39,725 nt of DNA. It comes from a virus. Location of the stretch: the IMG/VR virus record IMGVR_UViG_3300050119_000143, positions 1 to 39,725 of that record; one strand, 5' to 3'. Each line of letters opens with the position of its first letter. The first letter of the stretch is position 1. Under the pieces are notes generated by a model. That model saw only the letters and a program-made list of their open reading frames with translations, made no database searches and was not told the origin of the DNA. Position numbers and translations under genes: made by a program. Positions 4,643 through 16,949 of this stretch are shown here, in pieces.

Positions 4643-4868
4643 TCACCCAGACGAAATTAAAATGCGCCGGACCGATCTGCACGACGGTGTACTCGTGGCT
4701 GGGATAGACCGCCTCGACTTTTTCCGCCACCTGAAACAGAGCGGCGTCGACGGCCGCCTCGTTGTAAACCTGTCCCGCCGGCGCGCGGAGCTTGAGCATC
4801 CGCGATGCATTATTGCCGGGCTCGAACACGCGGAACCGGATCTCCTTCACGTCGGTCACGATCGTCAT
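4620..4868 (-). CDS. Hypothetical protein between methylase and terminase
   Basis: An 82-aa mixed alpha/beta protein, starting with an ATG that overlaps the stop of the methyltransferase gene (ATGA) and ending 23 bases inside the small terminase gene. Predicted beta strands alternate with a central helix (AAVDAALFQVAEKVEAVYP). I recognise no family. The overlaps show it is co-translated with the packaging genes. Confidence 0.6.
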   Translation of the reverse strand: MTIVTDVKEIRFRVFEPGNNASRMLKLRAPAGQVYNEAAVDAALFQVAEKVEAVYPSHEYTVVQIGPAHFNFVWVSARGGTS

Positions 4869-6178
4869 TCCCTCTTCGCTTTCTTCCCCGTGGCCTGTTC
4901 CCAGCGGAGCACGATGACGTCGACGAACTTCGGTTCCAGCTCACAGAGGTACGCGGAGCGCCCGAGCTTTTCGCACGAGATGAGCGTCGATCCTGATCCG
5001 CCGAATGAATCGAAAACCAGGTCGCCCTTCTTCGTGGAGTTTTTCAGAAGTTTGTCGATGAGGGCAACGGGCTTCATGGTTGGGTGTTCCTCGTTGCGCT
5101 TCGGCCGCGGGACGCGGAGCACGGTCGTGGTGAGTTCCTTGACCGCCATCTTCTCGCCTGAGATTTCAAACCACTGGTCGCCCAGGCGGAGCCGGTACAG
5201 ATTCGGTTCGACCTGCGTGAGCGGAGCCTCGAGCATGAACTCCGAGACCGTCGTCGACTTCCGGTCGCCGTACCACTTGTGCGAGCCCGTCGGTTTCCAG
5301 CCGTAGAGAATCGGCTCGTGCTGCCACTGGTAGTCGGAGCGGCCGAGCACGAGCGCGTCTTTGCACCACACCAGACACCCGGAGAGTTTGAAGCCGGTCT
5401 CTTTGAACGCGCTGCGGAAATTCAGACCTTCGGTGTCCGCGTGGCAAACGTAGATCGCGCCGCCGTCTTTCAGCATGCGGAACATCACGCCGTACGCGCG
5501 GAGCAGAAACTGTTTAAACGGCGCGTCGCCCATGTTGTCGTTTTGGATTTTTCCGGCGCCGCCCTCGTAGTTCACGTTATACGGTGGGTCGGTAAACACG
5601 GCGTCGGCGCGCTTGCCGGCGAATAATTTCTCGATGATGAACGGGTCGGTCGAGTCGCCGCAGATCACTCTGTGCGAGCCGAGCACAATCACCTCACCTG
5701 GGAACGTGACGGGCTTCGCCGGCGTCGGCGGGATCGCGTCTTCATCAACGCCTTCGAGCAGACCGCCGGGATCCGCGGACAAGAGCGCGGCGAGTTCGTC
5801 CTGATCGAAACCAGTCGCGCCGAGATCGAAGCCCATCTTGTACAAATCGCCCAGCTCGAGCTTCAGCAACGCCTCGTCCCAGTCCGCCTCTTCGTGAACC
5901 CGGTTGTCCGCGATGCGAAATGCCTTGCACTGCGCCGGCGTCAAGCCTGTGGCGACGTGGACCGGCACTTCCTTCATGCCCAGGCGCAGCGCGGCGAGCA
6001 ACCTGGTGTGCCCGGTGATGATTACGCCGTCCTTGTCGACCACGATCGGCACGCGGAATCCGAACTCCTTGATCGACGCCGCGAGTTTTTCGACAGCGCC
6101 TTCGTTTTTTCGTGGGTTCTGCTTGTACGGAATCAGTTTGTCCACGTCCCAGCTCGAAACCTTCATCACTTCGGTCAC
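4865..6178 (-). CDS. ParB-domain / DNA methyltransferase fusion
   Basis: A 437-aa fusion. Residues 1 to about 100 form a ParB/Srx-like nuclease-type domain with NPRKNEG and the hallmark GHTRLLAALRLG. Residues about 160-430 are a DNA adenine-type methyltransferase of the beta arrangement: catalytic motif IV TDPPYNV (196-202) precedes the SAM-binding motif FDSFGGSGST (389-398), with HPTMKP (365-370) before it. It would methylate phage or host DNA, probably for protection against restriction or for timing of packaging. A GTG at 6178 is used as start; ATG at 6166 is an alternative. It abuts the terminase cluster, a placement common in temperate phages. Confidence 0.93.
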   Translation of the reverse strand: MTEVMKVSSWDVDKLIPYKQNPRKNEGAVEKLAASIKEFGFRVPIVVDKDGVIITGHTRLLAALRLGMKEVPVHVATGLTPAQCKAFRIADNRVHEEADWDEALLKLELGDLYKMGFDLGATGFDQDELAALLSADPGGLLEGVDEDAIPPTPAKPVTFPGEVIVLGSHRVICGDSTDPFIIEKLFAGKRADAVFTDPPYNVNYEGGAGKIQNDNMGDAPFKQFLLRAYGVMFRMLKDGGAIYVCHADTEGLNFRSAFKETGFKLSGCLVWCKDALVLGRSDYQWQHEPILYGWKPTGSHKWYGDRKSTTVSEFMLEAPLTQVEPNLYRLRLGDQWFEISGEKMAVKELTTTVLRVPRPKRNEEHPTMKPVALIDKLLKNSTKKGDLVFDSFGGSGSTLISCEKLGRSAYLCELEPKFVDVIVLRWEQATGKKAKRE

Positions 6179-12525: not shown

Positions 12526-12686
12526 GATGGCTTCACCACTTTCCTGATGATCGGCCGCGACACGTTCGGCTGGTCGAACTCGCGCTCGATGAATTCGCGC
12601 ACGTCGCGGAGCTGCGGCATCAGCCGTCCGGAGTTCTTCGCGAGCGCCTCGTACAGCGCTTCGCATTGGACTTGGGTGAGCTTCAT
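12522..12686 (-). CDS. Small hypothetical protein (54 aa)
   Basis: A 54-aa frame whose ATG overlaps the stop of the methyltransferase gene (ATGA). It is predicted all-helical (LTQVQCEALYEALAKNSGRL, then LRDVREFIEREF), possibly a small DNA- or protein-binding helical bundle. No family recognised. It is coupled to the next gene through a GTGA overlap. Confidence 0.5.
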   Translation of the reverse strand: MKLTQVQCEALYEALAKNSGRLMPQLRDVREFIEREFDQPNVSRPIIRKVVKPS

Positions 12687-13723
12687 GCCGGCGTCTCCGC
12701 TGCAAACAGGACTTCCTGGCGGAGCCGCTCGTTCTGCAGCGACGCATACGCGGGATTGAGTTCGCAGCCGAGATACCGGCGCCCGTTTTCCTTGGCCACG
12801 AGCGCCGTGGTGCCAGAGCCCATGAACGGGTCGAACACAATATCGTTCGGGCGCGAGCCGGCCAGCACGCACGGAAGGATTAGATCTGGCGGAAACGTGG
12901 CGAAGTGAGCGCCGGCGTAAGGCTGCGTCGAGATCTGCCACACGCTGCGCTTGTTGCGCTCGTCGACCACGGCTCTAAATGCTTCGCGGCCCACGAGGTC
13001 GATGGTCTTACCGGCGAACTCACCGCGCTTGGCTGACGGTCGCGGACCGCGTCCCGTCGTCGGGCGCGTGGCGAGAGACTTCGGACCTTGGAACTCGTTG
13101 CCGTTCCAGCCGCAGATCGCTGGCTCGCGGATCGCCGCGGCGTCATAAAAATAATCAGCGGACTTCGAAAGCAGAAAAATGTACTCGTGGCTTTTCGTCG
13201 GGCGGTCGGTGACGCTCTCGGGCATCGGATTGGGCTTGTGCCAGATGATGTCGCTGCGGAGATACCAGCCATCCGCCTGCAGCGCGAACGCCACGCGCCA
13301 CGGGATACCGATGAGGTCTTTCGGCTTCAGTCCCGGCGTGTTCTTCAGACTTCCGGTGAGCGTGCCCTTCGGATGTGCGAGGATTTGGCGCGCACTGAGT
13401 GACGTTTCTCTCGAGCTCGCGCCCTCAAGCGTCCCCGGATAGAAGTCGCCGCGACTTTGCGCGCCCCAACTGCCGGCGTAGCTATCGCCCAGATTGAGCC
13501 AAACCGTTCCGTCATCGGCGAGCAGCTCGCGGACCAGGCGGAACACGTCGACCATTTGGCCGACATATTCCGCCGGCGTCTCTTCCATCCCGAGCTGCCC
13601 CTCAACGCCATAATCGCGAAGCCCGAAATACGGCGGCGACGTGATGCACGTCTGCACGCGCACGCCCTGCAGCACGAGGCACTTCATGATCGCGCGGCAA
13701 TCGCCGATGCGAATCTCGTTCAC
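12683..13723 (-). CDS. SPPY-type DNA methyltransferase
   Basis: A 346-aa DNA amino-methyltransferase. Catalytic motif IV is TSPPYFGLRDYG (residues 28-39), and the SAM-binding motif FDPFMGSGTT lies near the C-terminus (297-306), giving the beta arrangement. SPPY is typical of N4-cytosine enzymes, although adenine specificity is not excluded. About 100 residues between the motifs include WHKPNPMPES and a target-recognition region. The GTG start overlaps the integrase stop (GTGA). No matching restriction endonuclease is nearby, so it is an orphan methylase, probably modifying phage DNA against host restriction. Confidence 0.92.
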   Translation of the reverse strand: MNEIRIGDCRAIMKCLVLQGVRVQTCITSPPYFGLRDYGVEGQLGMEETPAEYVGQMVDVFRLVRELLADDGTVWLNLGDSYAGSWGAQSRGDFYPGTLEGASSRETSLSARQILAHPKGTLTGSLKNTPGLKPKDLIGIPWRVAFALQADGWYLRSDIIWHKPNPMPESVTDRPTKSHEYIFLLSKSADYFYDAAAIREPAICGWNGNEFQGPKSLATRPTTGRGPRPSAKRGEFAGKTIDLVGREAFRAVVDERNKRSVWQISTQPYAGAHFATFPPDLILPCVLAGSRPNDIVFDPFMGSGTTALVAKENGRRYLGCELNPAYASLQNERLRQEVLFAAETPA

Positions 13724-14748
13724 GCCGGCACCGCCGCCTCGACGTTCATCTTCGCGACGGCCGCTTTGCGGTGGTCGGCGGAGAGATGCGCGTACTTCAT
13801 GGTCATCACGATGGACTTGTGCCCGAGCAGCTCCTGCACGGTGCGGATGTCCACGCCAGCCATCACCAGGCGCGACGCGAATGTGTGCCGCAAATCGTGC
13901 CAGTGAAAATCATCCACGGCCGCTTCGTCGCACGCGTGCTCAAACCAGGTCCGCCAGTCGCGCTGCGCGGATCCGTCGTTATCGGGTGAGACGAACTCCT
14001 TCTCGCCGGTGTAGCGCGAGAGCCGCTTCAGCGTGCCGATCGCGGTGTCATTGGCGACGATGTGGCGCCGTCCGGTTTTCCCTTTGACCGTCAGGATTCC
14101 CCGTTCAAGGTCGCAATCTTTCCACTTGAGCCCGAACTGCTCGCCGCGGCGCATGCCGGTGTGGAGCGCGAGGTCGAACTCCCAGCGGTGGTAATCGACA
14201 GAGATGCATTTGCGAAGCCGGTCCTCTTCCTCGGGACGCAGCCATCGCACGCGGGCATCGTTTTCCTTGTAGCGCTTCACACGCGACGCCGGGTTTGCGG
14301 ACACTCGTCCGGTGGCGAGTGCAAAAGTGAACACCGTGGAAATAAACGAGCGGTAGCGATTCACCGTGGAGTTCGAAAGCCCGGACCGCTTCAGCGCCCC
14401 GAGCGTTTCCTCGATGCGTTCGGTGGTGACGCGGTCAAACGGGATCCCGCCGATGAGCGGCGAGAGCTGCCCCAGGCGGATGCGGTCGGTCTCAATCGAG
14501 AGCGCGGCGAGGCGAAGCGACTTCTGCTTGATCGCTTCATCGGCCAGCCGGCGGAACGACCAGGTGCGCGCCTGCCGCGGCGGAACGTAGCTGCCGTTTT
14601 TGACTTCCTTCTTTCGCCGGGTGAGCAGCTCGAGCGCCGCGGCGAGCTGCCCCGCCTTTTCCTTGTGCGGACGGCCGTCGGCGTCCCTGTAGAAAACCCA
14701 GTGGACGCCAGACGCCGGCGGACGCTCGAAGATGCCCGGTATTTTCAT
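13720..14748 (-). CDS. int: Tyrosine recombinase integrase
   Basis: A 342-aa integrase from ATG 14748, which overlaps the stop of the preceding gene (TAATG); this start is preferred over 14790. An N-terminal arm-binding-like part is followed by a SAM-like core-binding domain (about residues 60-160) and the catalytic domain. Catalytic residues are visible: Arg in LHTGMRRGE (about 200), a beta-hairpin Lys in VKGKTGRR, His-x-x-Arg in HDLRHTFAS (284/287), His in LLGHKS (310) and nucleophile Tyr in MKYAHLS (319). It shows that the phage can lysogenise. There is no gap on either side for an adjacent attP, which is unusual. Confidence 0.95.
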   Translation of the reverse strand: MKIPGIFERPPASGVHWVFYRDADGRPHKEKAGQLAAALELLTRRKKEVKNGSYVPPRQARTWSFRRLADEAIKQKSLRLAALSIETDRIRLGQLSPLIGGIPFDRVTTERIEETLGALKRSGLSNSTVNRYRSFISTVFTFALATGRVSANPASRVKRYKENDARVRWLRPEEEDRLRKCISVDYHRWEFDLALHTGMRRGEQFGLKWKDCDLERGILTVKGKTGRRHIVANDTAIGTLKRLSRYTGEKEFVSPDNDGSAQRDWRTWFEHACDEAAVDDFHWHDLRHTFASRLVMAGVDIRTVQELLGHKSIVMTMKYAHLSADHRKAAVAKMNVEAAVPA

Positions 14749-15497
14749 TAGCTGATGATTGGCGAGCCCGTGATTTTTGCGCCGAGCCATGCCTTGATCG
14801 CCGCGACCGCATCGAGCCGCCAGCGCCCGCCGTCACCTTCGAACAGAGCGAGCTTCACCACACCGTTCTCCTGTTTTGCGCGGAAGATGAATGTGGCGGG
14901 CACCTGGTCGATTTCGGCAAACGTGCGATACGGCGCGAGAGTGACGCGAGCGCGGAGAGCGGCAGACTCTTTCAGCACGACGCCGGCGGCGACGTTGACC
15001 CGCTGGCTGATACCGTCGTCGACGTTGGTGACGGTCGAATCGGCCGTGATCCGCGACGATTGCTCGAGCACGTAGTCGAGGTCTTTCGCGAACGTGCCGT
15101 CATCGCCCTGAATCTTCACGCGCTGGAAGCCCTGCTGCACCGCGATGAGGAAATTCTCAACGTGAAACCAATTGCCGAACGTGAACGTCGGGCAGCTTTT
15201 CTCGGGGTAGTGTGCCTCGGCATAGATCTGGCGCCGCCCGTAGCTGTCGGACTTTCGTCCGATGAGCGAGACTAAGAACGGCGACTGGATATGCACGAGC
15301 AAATCGTCGTCGGCCTTCACATCTTCAATTTCGCCCTCGAGCAAATCCACGAGACCCTGCAGCGTGCTGACATCGATCTCGCTCGGAACCGGCGGCTTCA
15401 CGATGTGGATGTCTTTGTCGACGTACAGCTTGTCGCCGACGGTGATCTGGTTCGGTGGTGCCAGTCCTAGAATTCTGTCAATCGCTTCGCGAATCAT
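14748..15497 (-). CDS. Conserved phage early protein (249 aa)
   Basis: A 249-aa protein resembling an early-region family common in phages of Gram-positive bacteria and others. It starts MIREAIDRILGL, has DVSTLQGLVDLLEGEI and LLVHIQSPF in the first third, then FGNWFHVENFLIAVQQGF. The C-terminus has LAPYRTFAEIDQVPATFIFR and ALFEGDGGRWR. The function is not known; such genes often lie near recombination or replication genes. It is followed directly by the integrase and preceded by the replication-terminator-like gene, the usual partner order. Confidence 0.75.
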   Translation of the reverse strand: MIREAIDRILGLAPPNQITVGDKLYVDKDIHIVKPPVPSEIDVSTLQGLVDLLEGEIEDVKADDDLLVHIQSPFLVSLIGRKSDSYGRRQIYAEAHYPEKSCPTFTFGNWFHVENFLIAVQQGFQRVKIQGDDGTFAKDLDYVLEQSSRITADSTVTNVDDGISQRVNVAAGVVLKESAALRARVTLAPYRTFAEIDQVPATFIFRAKQENGVVKLALFEGDGGRWRLDAVAAIKAWLGAKITGSPIIS

Positions 15498-15533: not shown

Positions 15534-15860
15534 TTACTGCAACGACGGATCGGACTGCCGGAAAAGCGTGTTCTGCTTGGGATCGTGCGGGATCGCGACC
15601 ATCGTGGTGCCGCGCCGCTCCAAAAACATCGTGCCCTTTACGGAGTTCACAGCCGCCTGCTTCGACTTGATCGTGAACTCGATCTGCGCGCCCGAGCGGT
15701 CCTCGAACGGCTTCAGCGTGAATTCGAGCGTGATCTTCCGCTTCGATTCGGGGTTCGTATTCACGTCGCCGATGTTGCCCAGGACCTCGGACAGCTCACG
15801 CTGAAAGAGTTCCTCGACGGCGCCGCCGCAAATGTTGCTCAGTTCAATCCGGTTTTCCAC
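15534..15860 (-). CDS. Replication-terminator-like phage protein
   Basis: A 108-aa protein starting at GTG 15860, seven bases after AGGAGG; longer open frame upstream runs through the regulator gene and is rejected. It contains NICGGAVEELFQRELSEVL, then the strongly conserved-looking SKRKITLEFTLKPFEDRSG and KGTMFLERRG. Phage proteins with this layout are commonly named replication terminator protein, but the name is historical and the activity unproven. It overlaps the HTH regulator gene by 22 bases, so the two are co-expressed. Confidence 0.75.
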   Translation of the reverse strand: MENRIELSNICGGAVEELFQRELSEVLGNIGDVNTNPESKRKITLEFTLKPFEDRSGAQIEFTIKSKQAAVNSVKGTMFLERRGTTMVAIPHDPKQNTLFRQSDPSLQ

Positions 15861-16114
15861 TTTGACCTCCTGGTGTACCGCCCCTCGCGGAGCGGCTGAT
15901 AGATTTCGTCGAGCGTGAGCGCGACGCGCCGACGCCTGGCGAGACTCTGAATAGCGAAAGCCATCACGGGATGCGGGCTCGTGTTGCCGCCAATCCACTG
16001 GTAGATCGCAGAGGTCCGAACGCGAAGCCGCGACGCGAGCAGCGGGATGGGATAAGCGGTGACGAACTTCGCGAACTTTGATTCCCATCGTTTATCGTCA
16101 ATTCGTGCCGGCAT
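15839..16114 (-). CDS. HTH regulator (Cro-like)
   Basis: A 91-aa DNA-binding protein. The helix-turn-helix is seen in YPIPLLASRLRVRTSAIYQW (roughly residues 20-39), followed by helices ending in AIQSLARRRR and a basic tail. ATG 16114 is preferred to GTG 16120 because CAGGTG sits five bases upstream. It is the first gene of the minus-strand early operon and is divergent from the only plus-strand gene, so it may act as a Cro- or CII-like switch protein. The divergent gap carries an inverted repeat (16203-16240) that could be an operator. Confidence 0.75.
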   Translation of the reverse strand: MPARIDDKRWESKFAKFVTAYPIPLLASRLRVRTSAIYQWIGGNTSPHPVMAFAIQSLARRRRVALTLDEIYQPLREGRYTRRSKWKTGLN

Positions 16115-16202
16115 GGTCACCTGCTTTCGAGCACACGATTCGCGATTCCCCGTGAACGACCCCGACTCTCGCCAACTGCGAACTTATTTTTTCCTGCACT
16201 CT

Positions 16203-16240
16203 AGATTTGCCTTGCCTCCACAACCGTTACTTGCAAATCT
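16203..16240. promoter_or_regulatory. Candidate operator: inverted repeat in divergent gap
   Basis: AGATTTGC (16203-16210) and GCAAATCT (16233-16240) form a perfect 8-bp inverted repeat separated by 22 bases. They lie in the 177-base divergent gap between the HTH gene and the plus-strand gene. The spacing puts the half-sites on about the same helix face within three turns. No clean sigma-70 promoter was found around it. Operator role is inferred. Confidence 0.45.
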
Positions 16241-16291
16241 CGTAAACCGAAAGCGCGGACCGCAGCCGCCCTCAATTCCAGGAGGAAGTGC

Positions 16292-16624
16292 ATGGCTGAC
16301 GATCCCAAACTCATCGCGTTCGAATACCTGCTCGGAGCTTCCAAGTGTTCCCTGCAAAATGCGATGCTCCACCGCCTCGCCGACGCCCAGAACCGACGCA
16401 AAGAGTTATTCGAGCTGCTCGACGCCTGGGCAGAGAAGCGCGCGGAGGCTATGCTGTTAAGCTGGTTCCTGGAGCGCGGCGAGGAATTGGCGGGATCGCT
16501 CGGATCGATGACAAGGTCGCCACGAGTAACCGAAATACAACGGCTAGTACCGGCGGAAAAACCGGGTCCGCAAAAGAGCTTGGACTTCAGAGAAACACTG
16601 CGAAGCCTCGTCGAGTCAGCGTGA
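16292..16624 (+). CDS. Lone plus-strand gene, unknown function
   Basis: A 110-aa protein and the only plus-strand gene I support. It has an excellent ribosome-binding site (AGGAGG at 16280) eight bases before ATG 16292. The first 70 residues are helical (LIAFEYLLGASKCSLQNAML, RLADAQNRRKELFELLDAWA, AMLLSWFLERGEELAG). The rest is low-complexity. No HTH is visible, so it is not an obvious repressor, yet its position opposite an HTH gene is where temperate phages keep the lysogeny gene. It could be a repressor of unknown fold, an immunity protein or a moron from the host. Confidence 0.7.
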   Translation: MADDPKLIAFEYLLGASKCSLQNAMLHRLADAQNRRKELFELLDAWAEKRAEAMLLSWFLERGEELAGSLGSMTRSPRVTEIQRLVPAEKPGPQKSLDFRETLRSLVESA

Positions 16625-16735
16625 TGCCGTGCGGGGGTGGCAAGGTGGTTAACAGGAAGGCACGTTACCCTGCAATGAATACTATGTTGCATTTGCTCGT
16701 GGGGCAAACACCGGATGGGGAAAGTACGCATCGGG

Positions 16736-16909
16736 TTAAGCGGACGCCTTCAGGGGTTTTGAATCGGCCTCGCGGTGGAGGATTTGCCGAGCGAGTTCAG
16801 AGATGTCCGTGTTGCGGGCTCGCGCGAGGCGGTTAAACTTCCGCTTTTCCGCTTCGCTGACCCGGATGAACAGCCGTTCGTTTCGTTGGACTTCCTGAGT
16901 GAGTGCCAT
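16736..16909 (-). CDS. Ribbon-helix-helix (Arc/MetJ-type) protein, 57 aa
   Basis: A 57-aa protein with a classical ribbon-helix-helix pattern: LFIRVSEAEKRKFNRLARA (strand plus helix A), then RNTDISELARQIL (turn plus helix B). Such proteins dimerise through the strand and bind operators as repressors, antitoxins or plasmid/mobilisation accessory factors. No toxin gene follows. A near-consensus promoter lies directly upstream, with the -10 only about ten bases from the ATG and no Shine-Dalgarno, so a leaderless or near-leaderless transcript is likely. It is convergent with the plus-strand gene. Confidence 0.75.
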   Translation of the reverse strand: MALTQEVQRNERLFIRVSEAEKRKFNRLARARNTDISELARQILHREADSKPLKASA

Positions 16910-16919
16910 CGCGGGAGGG

Positions 16920-16949
16920 ACTGTACACGCTGTGCGGACAACGTGTCAA
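16920..16949 (-). promoter_or_regulatory. Sigma-70-type promoter for RHH gene
   Basis: Read on the minus strand, TTGACA (16949-16944) and TACAGT (16925-16920) are separated by 18 bases. The -35 is a perfect consensus and the -10 matches at four of six positions. An imperfect inverted repeat (ACACG...CGTGT) overlaps the spacer and could be an autoregulatory operator. It is the best promoter match in the window. Confidence 0.65.

Follow-up and report, generated by a model that had tools for sequence, protein, structure and literature searches.

A dif-like site beside a new family of small helical proteins: a putative Xer/dif integration module in temperate tailed phages of Acidobacteriota

Integrative mobile elements exploiting Xer (IMEX) use the host recombinases XerC and XerD for insertion at the chromosomal dif site. 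In the attP sites of known IMEX, one arm and the centre of dif are kept, and the other arm is divergent (PMC5357621). Among the IMEX phages described in the literature that was found, most are filamentous or lack a tail. XafT of TLCphi, a Vibrio satellite phage, provides a precedent for a Xer factor encoded by a phage; it is cited as a Xer activation factor (PMC9765430).

The window, i.e. the whole stretch of 39,725 nt that was analyzed (IMG/VR record IMGVR_UViG_3300050119_000143), represents a temperate siphophage. Its terminase, portal, head, tail and lysis genes and its early operon are encoded on the minus strand. The host is probably a soil bacterium of the Acidobacteriota; hosts were assigned from the order and not for each phage individually. 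Two DNA methyltransferase genes are also present (4865-6178 and 12683-13723), one of them with a ParB-like N-terminal domain. A previous sequence-only reading had singled out the one plus-strand gene, which encodes 110 amino acids, as part of a candidate lysogeny switch. A codon-usage gene call, trained on long ORFs, indeed left no other plus-strand ORF. The good ribosome-binding site (AGGAGG, with a spacing of 6 nt to the ATG) and the gap of 177 bases to the divergent HTH gene, counted from the HTH start at ATG 16114, were also found as described. Two features had been overlooked, namely the RHH gene at 16736-16909 and the dif-like site at 16665-16692. The features of the region are summarized in Table 1.

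Table 1. Features of the early operon and of the region around the 110-aa gene
Feature	Position	Strand	Basis or remark
Early-operon tyrosine recombinase	13720..14748	-	In relatives irrespective of slot content
phrog_1029 protein, 249 aa, early operon; query for finding relatives	14748..15497	-	PHROGs match
phrog_997 protein, early operon	15534..15860	-	PHROGs match
Cro-like HTH gene, heads early operon	15839..16120	-	ATG 16114 or GTG 16120; weak P22_Cro match
Shine-Dalgarno AGGAGG of the 110-aa gene	16280..16285	+	Sequence; ATG 6 nt downstream
110-aa gene (family FAM)	16292..16624	+	Translation, family search, dN/dS, AF2
dif-like site, putative attP, TTACCCTGCAA TGAATA CTATGTTGCAT	16665..16692	+	Best record-wide match to G490 dif
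57-aa ribbon-helix-helix (RHH, CopG/Arc type) gene that converges on the 110-aa gene	16736..16909	-	RHH_1, gene call
Putative promoter of the RHH gene, sigma-70-type, TTGACA-N18-TACAGT	16920..16949	-	Unique in the record in having at least 10/12 matches
Imperfect 22-bp palindrome ACACGTTGTCCGCACAGCGTGT, candidate RHH operator	16925..16946		Within the promoter spacer

The codon usage of the 110-aa gene was weakly coding (5.9 bits; GC by codon position 0.64/0.44/0.67), and therefore the reality of the gene was settled by its conservation. Searches with the single protein retrieved no homologue. The family was reached via synteny: relatives of the phage were found with the 249-aa early-operon neighbour, and two of them had a similar divergent gene at the same position. 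Profile searches then yielded 11 distinct phage members, with L047 as a near copy of L040. The family is under purifying selection (dN/dS 0.07-0.28 for the pairs for which it was computable), and several of its members are preceded by Shine-Dalgarno sequences. The 110-aa ORF is a genuine, conserved gene. Its product belongs to a new family that is absent from the libraries searched: neither Pfam, PHROGs and NCBIfam nor, by sequence, the PDB contained a match, and a fold search was also empty. The structure prediction that the sequence-only reading had proposed as a check yielded one long helix comprising residues 5-72, with pLDDT values above 90 over much of its length, followed by a disordered tail. 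A second query sequence gave the same predicted fold. The lack of an HTH in the protein was thus borne out by this single-helix prediction and by the absence of a match to any HTH family.

The genomic context of the family gene is a mixture of constant and exchangeable elements. In 11 of 11 phages it is the sole opposite-strand gene, with the lysis genes on one side of it and the early or integrase operon on the other, and in all of them a small DNA-binding gene is convergent with it. This convergent partner is of the RHH type in the window, L040, L041, L044 and L024, and an XRE-type HTH gene in L007, L008, L011, L021, L022 and L023; a TTGACA is present in its promoter-like sequence in 10 of the 11 phages. 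The divergent partner is an HTH gene in six phages and an RHH gene in L021 and L022, and in L023 the 110-aa homologue directly adjoins a divergent recombinase gene. A phylogenetic tree contained one chromosomal group and two phage clades; it did not resolve the root, and the chromosomal group was weakly supported.

A dif-like half site was found 7-199 nt beyond the stop codon of the family gene in all 11 phages, and almost nowhere else. A motif related to wAYTATGTT, which resembles the XerD half of dif, recurs 3' of the gene. It matched 11 times in 2,200 in-gap positions, versus 4 times in 944,520 positions elsewhere in the 33 phage loci, with L021 recognized by its XerC half. As the motif had first been noticed in the same phage sequences, the subsequent search for dif in host genomes served as the independent test. 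In the window, the site is flanked by the 110-aa gene on one side and the RHH gene on the other. This constant dif-like neighbour in all family phages points to integration.

For the host search, the genomes of the order to which the Terriglobia genome G001 belongs were scanned by a pattern search. An initial pattern with a fixed C missed most sites and was replaced. Exactly one dif site per genome was found in 40 of the 95 genomes, and the reversed pattern, used as a control, had no match in the 95 genomes. The host dif has an 11-6-11 form, GCGTCCYATAA GTWATA TTATGTTAACT, with variants. A second TATATTATGTTAACT in G460 was rejected as dif; it lies upstream of gidB-parAB, in an origin-type neighbourhood. 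As a separate observation, a conserved TTGACA precedes the host dif, with 17 bases to a TATTAT inside dif, so that dif and a promoter-like sequence overlap (L104-L108, L110, L112).

The half sites of the phages agreed with dif variants of this order at 12-17 of 17 bases. The closest agreement was observed for L023 and L024, in which 17 bases are identical to the site of G436. When the centre and the XerD arm were compared with dif of G490, L040 matched at 16, L041 at 15 and the window at 14 of 17 positions. The half site of L011 matched dif of G441 at 16/17, the XerC arm and centre of L022 and L021 matched dif of G453 at 16/17, and the half sites of L007 and L008 had 13/17 matches. A first PWM, built from dif sites of other clades, missed the site of the window, and dif of G490 picked it, with 19/28 matches overall and 14/17 in the right half (the runner-up elsewhere in the record had 18/28). 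Several dif variants were tried, and thus the value of 19/28 for the window alone is weak evidence. We regard 16665-16692 as a dif-like site because it is supported by the aligned sites of L040 and L041; with the latter it forms a conserved island (21/24). On its sequence, it would be the attP for integration at dif by the host XerC/XerD. In the dif-like sites of L007 (1011-1065), L008 (4124-4178) and L022 (8458-8499), the XerD-type arm is inverted and there is also an inverted repeat, ATACGG...CCGTAT in L007; these sites could form hairpins and recall the attP of CTXphi.

The sequence-only reading had held that close homologues with a known but unrelated chromosomal function would speak against a lysogeny switch, and the chromosomal homologues that were found do so in part. 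They occur in 53 of the 95 genomes of the order, nearly always as one copy per genome, and are located in the dif region; the remaining sampled genomes of the class and the phylum contained no homologue. The distance to dif was 15-46 kb in the seven genomes that have both on one contig (31 kb in G436), and these seven genomes are related to each other and hence not independent. In most chromosomes the homologue is linked but not adjacent to dif. In G441 it starts about 100 bp from dif, with its 5' end facing the site, whereas in the phages it is the 3' end. The neighbourhood of the chromosomal homologue is conserved: one side is occupied by a NuoI-like gene, a disulfide-reductase-like gene and parAB, and the other by a divergent, likewise conserved cluster of three small genes (L076:1945-2889, with equivalents in L070-L092). 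Their products are a small protein with CxxC, a winged-helix protein and a protein of 132 aa that matched no family.

Lysis and virion-type genes, probable remains of an element at dif, are present on one side of dif in most of the host genomes that were inspected; they are missing from G444, which has no 110-aa homologue. The conserved set, consisting of lysis genes (spanin, transglycosylase) and virion-type genes, adjoins dif in L113, L117, L125, L126, L127, L130 and L132; it might represent a tail-like particle or a gene transfer agent, or else a domesticated prophage. An intact family prophage flanked by two dif sites was not found in the host genomes looked at. Further family members are present in mobile elements of the host order, i.e. 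in a DnaB-bearing element (L119:8356-8601), a prophage (L120:8205-8405) and an element of unknown type (L121:6001-6279); with the pattern used, a dif-like motif was absent near two of these three copies (L119, L121).

The relatives of the phage reveal what else can occupy the position of the 110-aa gene. A serine integrase gene is found there in L005, L009, L012, L013, L016 and the G001 prophage, and a second tyrosine integrase gene in L018, L042 and L043. The early tyrosine recombinase is also present in these relatives. As the slot holds integrases in relatives and the early recombinase is constant, the position is an integration slot, in which the family gene replaces the slot integrase. 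The prophage of G001 (contig 49, 35442-75048; L067-L069) is complete-looking and interrupts comM; the insertion adjoins the serine integrase gene, and a 12-bp repeat, the core CCGTGCGGGTAT, is present at both ends. A 9-bp comM-like word at 16627 in the window, which resembles this core, was discarded, as its position is not matched in relatives. In the serine-integrase relatives, inspection by eye indicated that a TetR-like regulator gene replaces the RHH or XRE gene (L005:4990-5316, L016:5051-5398).

The proposal of a lysogeny switch of unknown type therefore survives in part: the gene belongs to the lysogeny region, in the same slot as the integrases of relatives, but it is probably not the switch. 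The 8-bp inverted repeat noted in the divergent gap, AGATTTGC-N22-GCAAATCT at 16203-16240, is present, but it is near chance level, a repeat of such kind being found in 5% of shuffles and in 12% of the 171-nt windows of the record, and it is kept in no relative; it was rejected as an operator. A search for motifs common to the gaps between HTH and 110-aa genes gave nothing convincing. A repressor function of the 110-aa protein was not supported: a DNA-binding domain is absent, the supposed operator lacks conservation, and the adjacent RHH gene is a better candidate. The product of the RHH gene matched RHH_1 with 22.2 bits (cut-off 20.5). The palindrome upstream of it is symmetric at 18 of 22 positions, which 3% of shuffles equalled, and its core is conserved in L040, L041 and L044. 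As the RHH gene has its own strong promoter with a palindrome, it is, judged from these sequence features, most likely the repressor-type gene of the region.

Taken together, we interpret the region as a module by which a temperate tailed phage of Acidobacteriota would integrate through Xer/dif, with the 110-aa protein as a candidate Xer accessory factor, and we give this combined interpretation about an even chance of being correct. The module as such is well supported; the accessory role proposed for the protein is the weaker part. The host XerC/XerD would recombine the phage attP with the chromosomal dif, as in IMEX. The long-helix protein, whose gene is divergent from the early operon, would act on the Xer reaction, by activation, synapsis or control of its direction. 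In the lysogen, the 110-aa gene and the HTH gene would stay together at one end, and the RHH gene would go to the other. A more far-reaching version appears possible, yet we hold it only tentatively: the protein would be the founder of a class of single-long-helix Xer/dif factors, new to science, that tailed phages use for insertion at dif, and the chromosomal homologue would have been domesticated in the dif region of one order.

Three other explanations have to be weighed against the Xer/dif module. Genes near att sites at prophage ends are often cargo, and the 110-aa gene might be cargo or a host mimic that serves the lysogen or interferes with the chromosomal homologue, probably via mixed coiled coils, with integration performed by the host Xer proteins alone; it would lie beside attP only because cargo collects there. 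The single-copy chromosomal homologue that is common in one order and the predicted long-helix fold, which suits dimer exchange, are both compatible with this explanation. Cargo would be expected to vary, however, and the gene is kept, always together with the dif-like site, while both flanking regulators are exchanged, so that we judge a cargo function to be unlikely. The same constancy speaks more for a function in recombination than for one with either of the regulators, and it also bears on the idea that the protein is a lysogeny regulator without an HTH, i.e. a repressor partner, antirepressor or immunity protein that has the RHH or XRE protein as its partner or the Cro-like protein as its target. 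The divergent HTH or RHH genes and the convergent DNA-binding gene of every family phage fit such a function, as does the divergent orientation of the chromosomal copies to an operon with a winged-helix gene. Nevertheless, the protein has no DNA-binding domain, the inverted repeat in the gap is not conserved, the partner genes are non-homologous between phages, and a second copy of the RHH palindrome was sought in the early promoter region and none was present. A regulator of this kind is therefore unlikely.

Several observations speak against the Xer/dif module: the missing intact prophage at dif, the modest match of the window's own site, the two mobile-element copies that lack the motif, the reversed orientation of the gene in G441 and its distance from dif in most chromosomes. 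A further point against it is that the phage encodes its own tyrosine recombinase (13720-14748), which could use the dif-like site. The early enzyme would then target dif, and the 110-aa protein would be its directionality factor; the recombinase gene directly divergent from the homologue in L023 could be taken in the same sense. The same recombinase is, however, present in relatives that integrate otherwise, e.g. in the comM prophage of G001, and we consider integration by the phage's own enzyme to be quite improbable.

If the Xer/dif module with its accessory protein is confirmed, 40-kb tailed phages with a dif-type attP, which swap this module for ordinary integrases, would bring a major group of phages into the range of Xer hijacking. 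The association of a small protein with the site would make it possible to test directly how Xer is turned on or off by these phages. In addition, the host could be predicted from the phage site, as every site has its particular counterpart among the dif variants of a single acidobacterial order.

The comparison with described systems yields different degrees of similarity. Like the CI/C2-type phage repressors, the 110-aa gene is divergent from a Cro-like gene that heads the early operon; in contrast to them, it lacks an HTH and a conserved operator. The features of Arc/CopG ribbon-helix-helix repressors are found in the gene at 16736-16909 and not in the 110-aa gene, namely the RHH_1 match and a strong promoter with a palindrome, the target being putative. 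With XafT, the 110-aa protein would share the small size, the phage origin and the proposed role in the Xer reaction; it is not presented as a homologue, has a predicted long-helix fold, and its action is that of a candidate. The similarity to IMEX is most extensive: the family phages have a dif-like putative attP, which matches the host dif and in which one arm is conserved and the other divergent, and a resemblance to host dif was found in 11 of 11 phages, at the level of half sites and with hosts assigned from the order. They differ from IMEX in that they are tailed siphophages of Acidobacteriota that encode their own tyrosine recombinase and carry a new protein family beside the putative attP.
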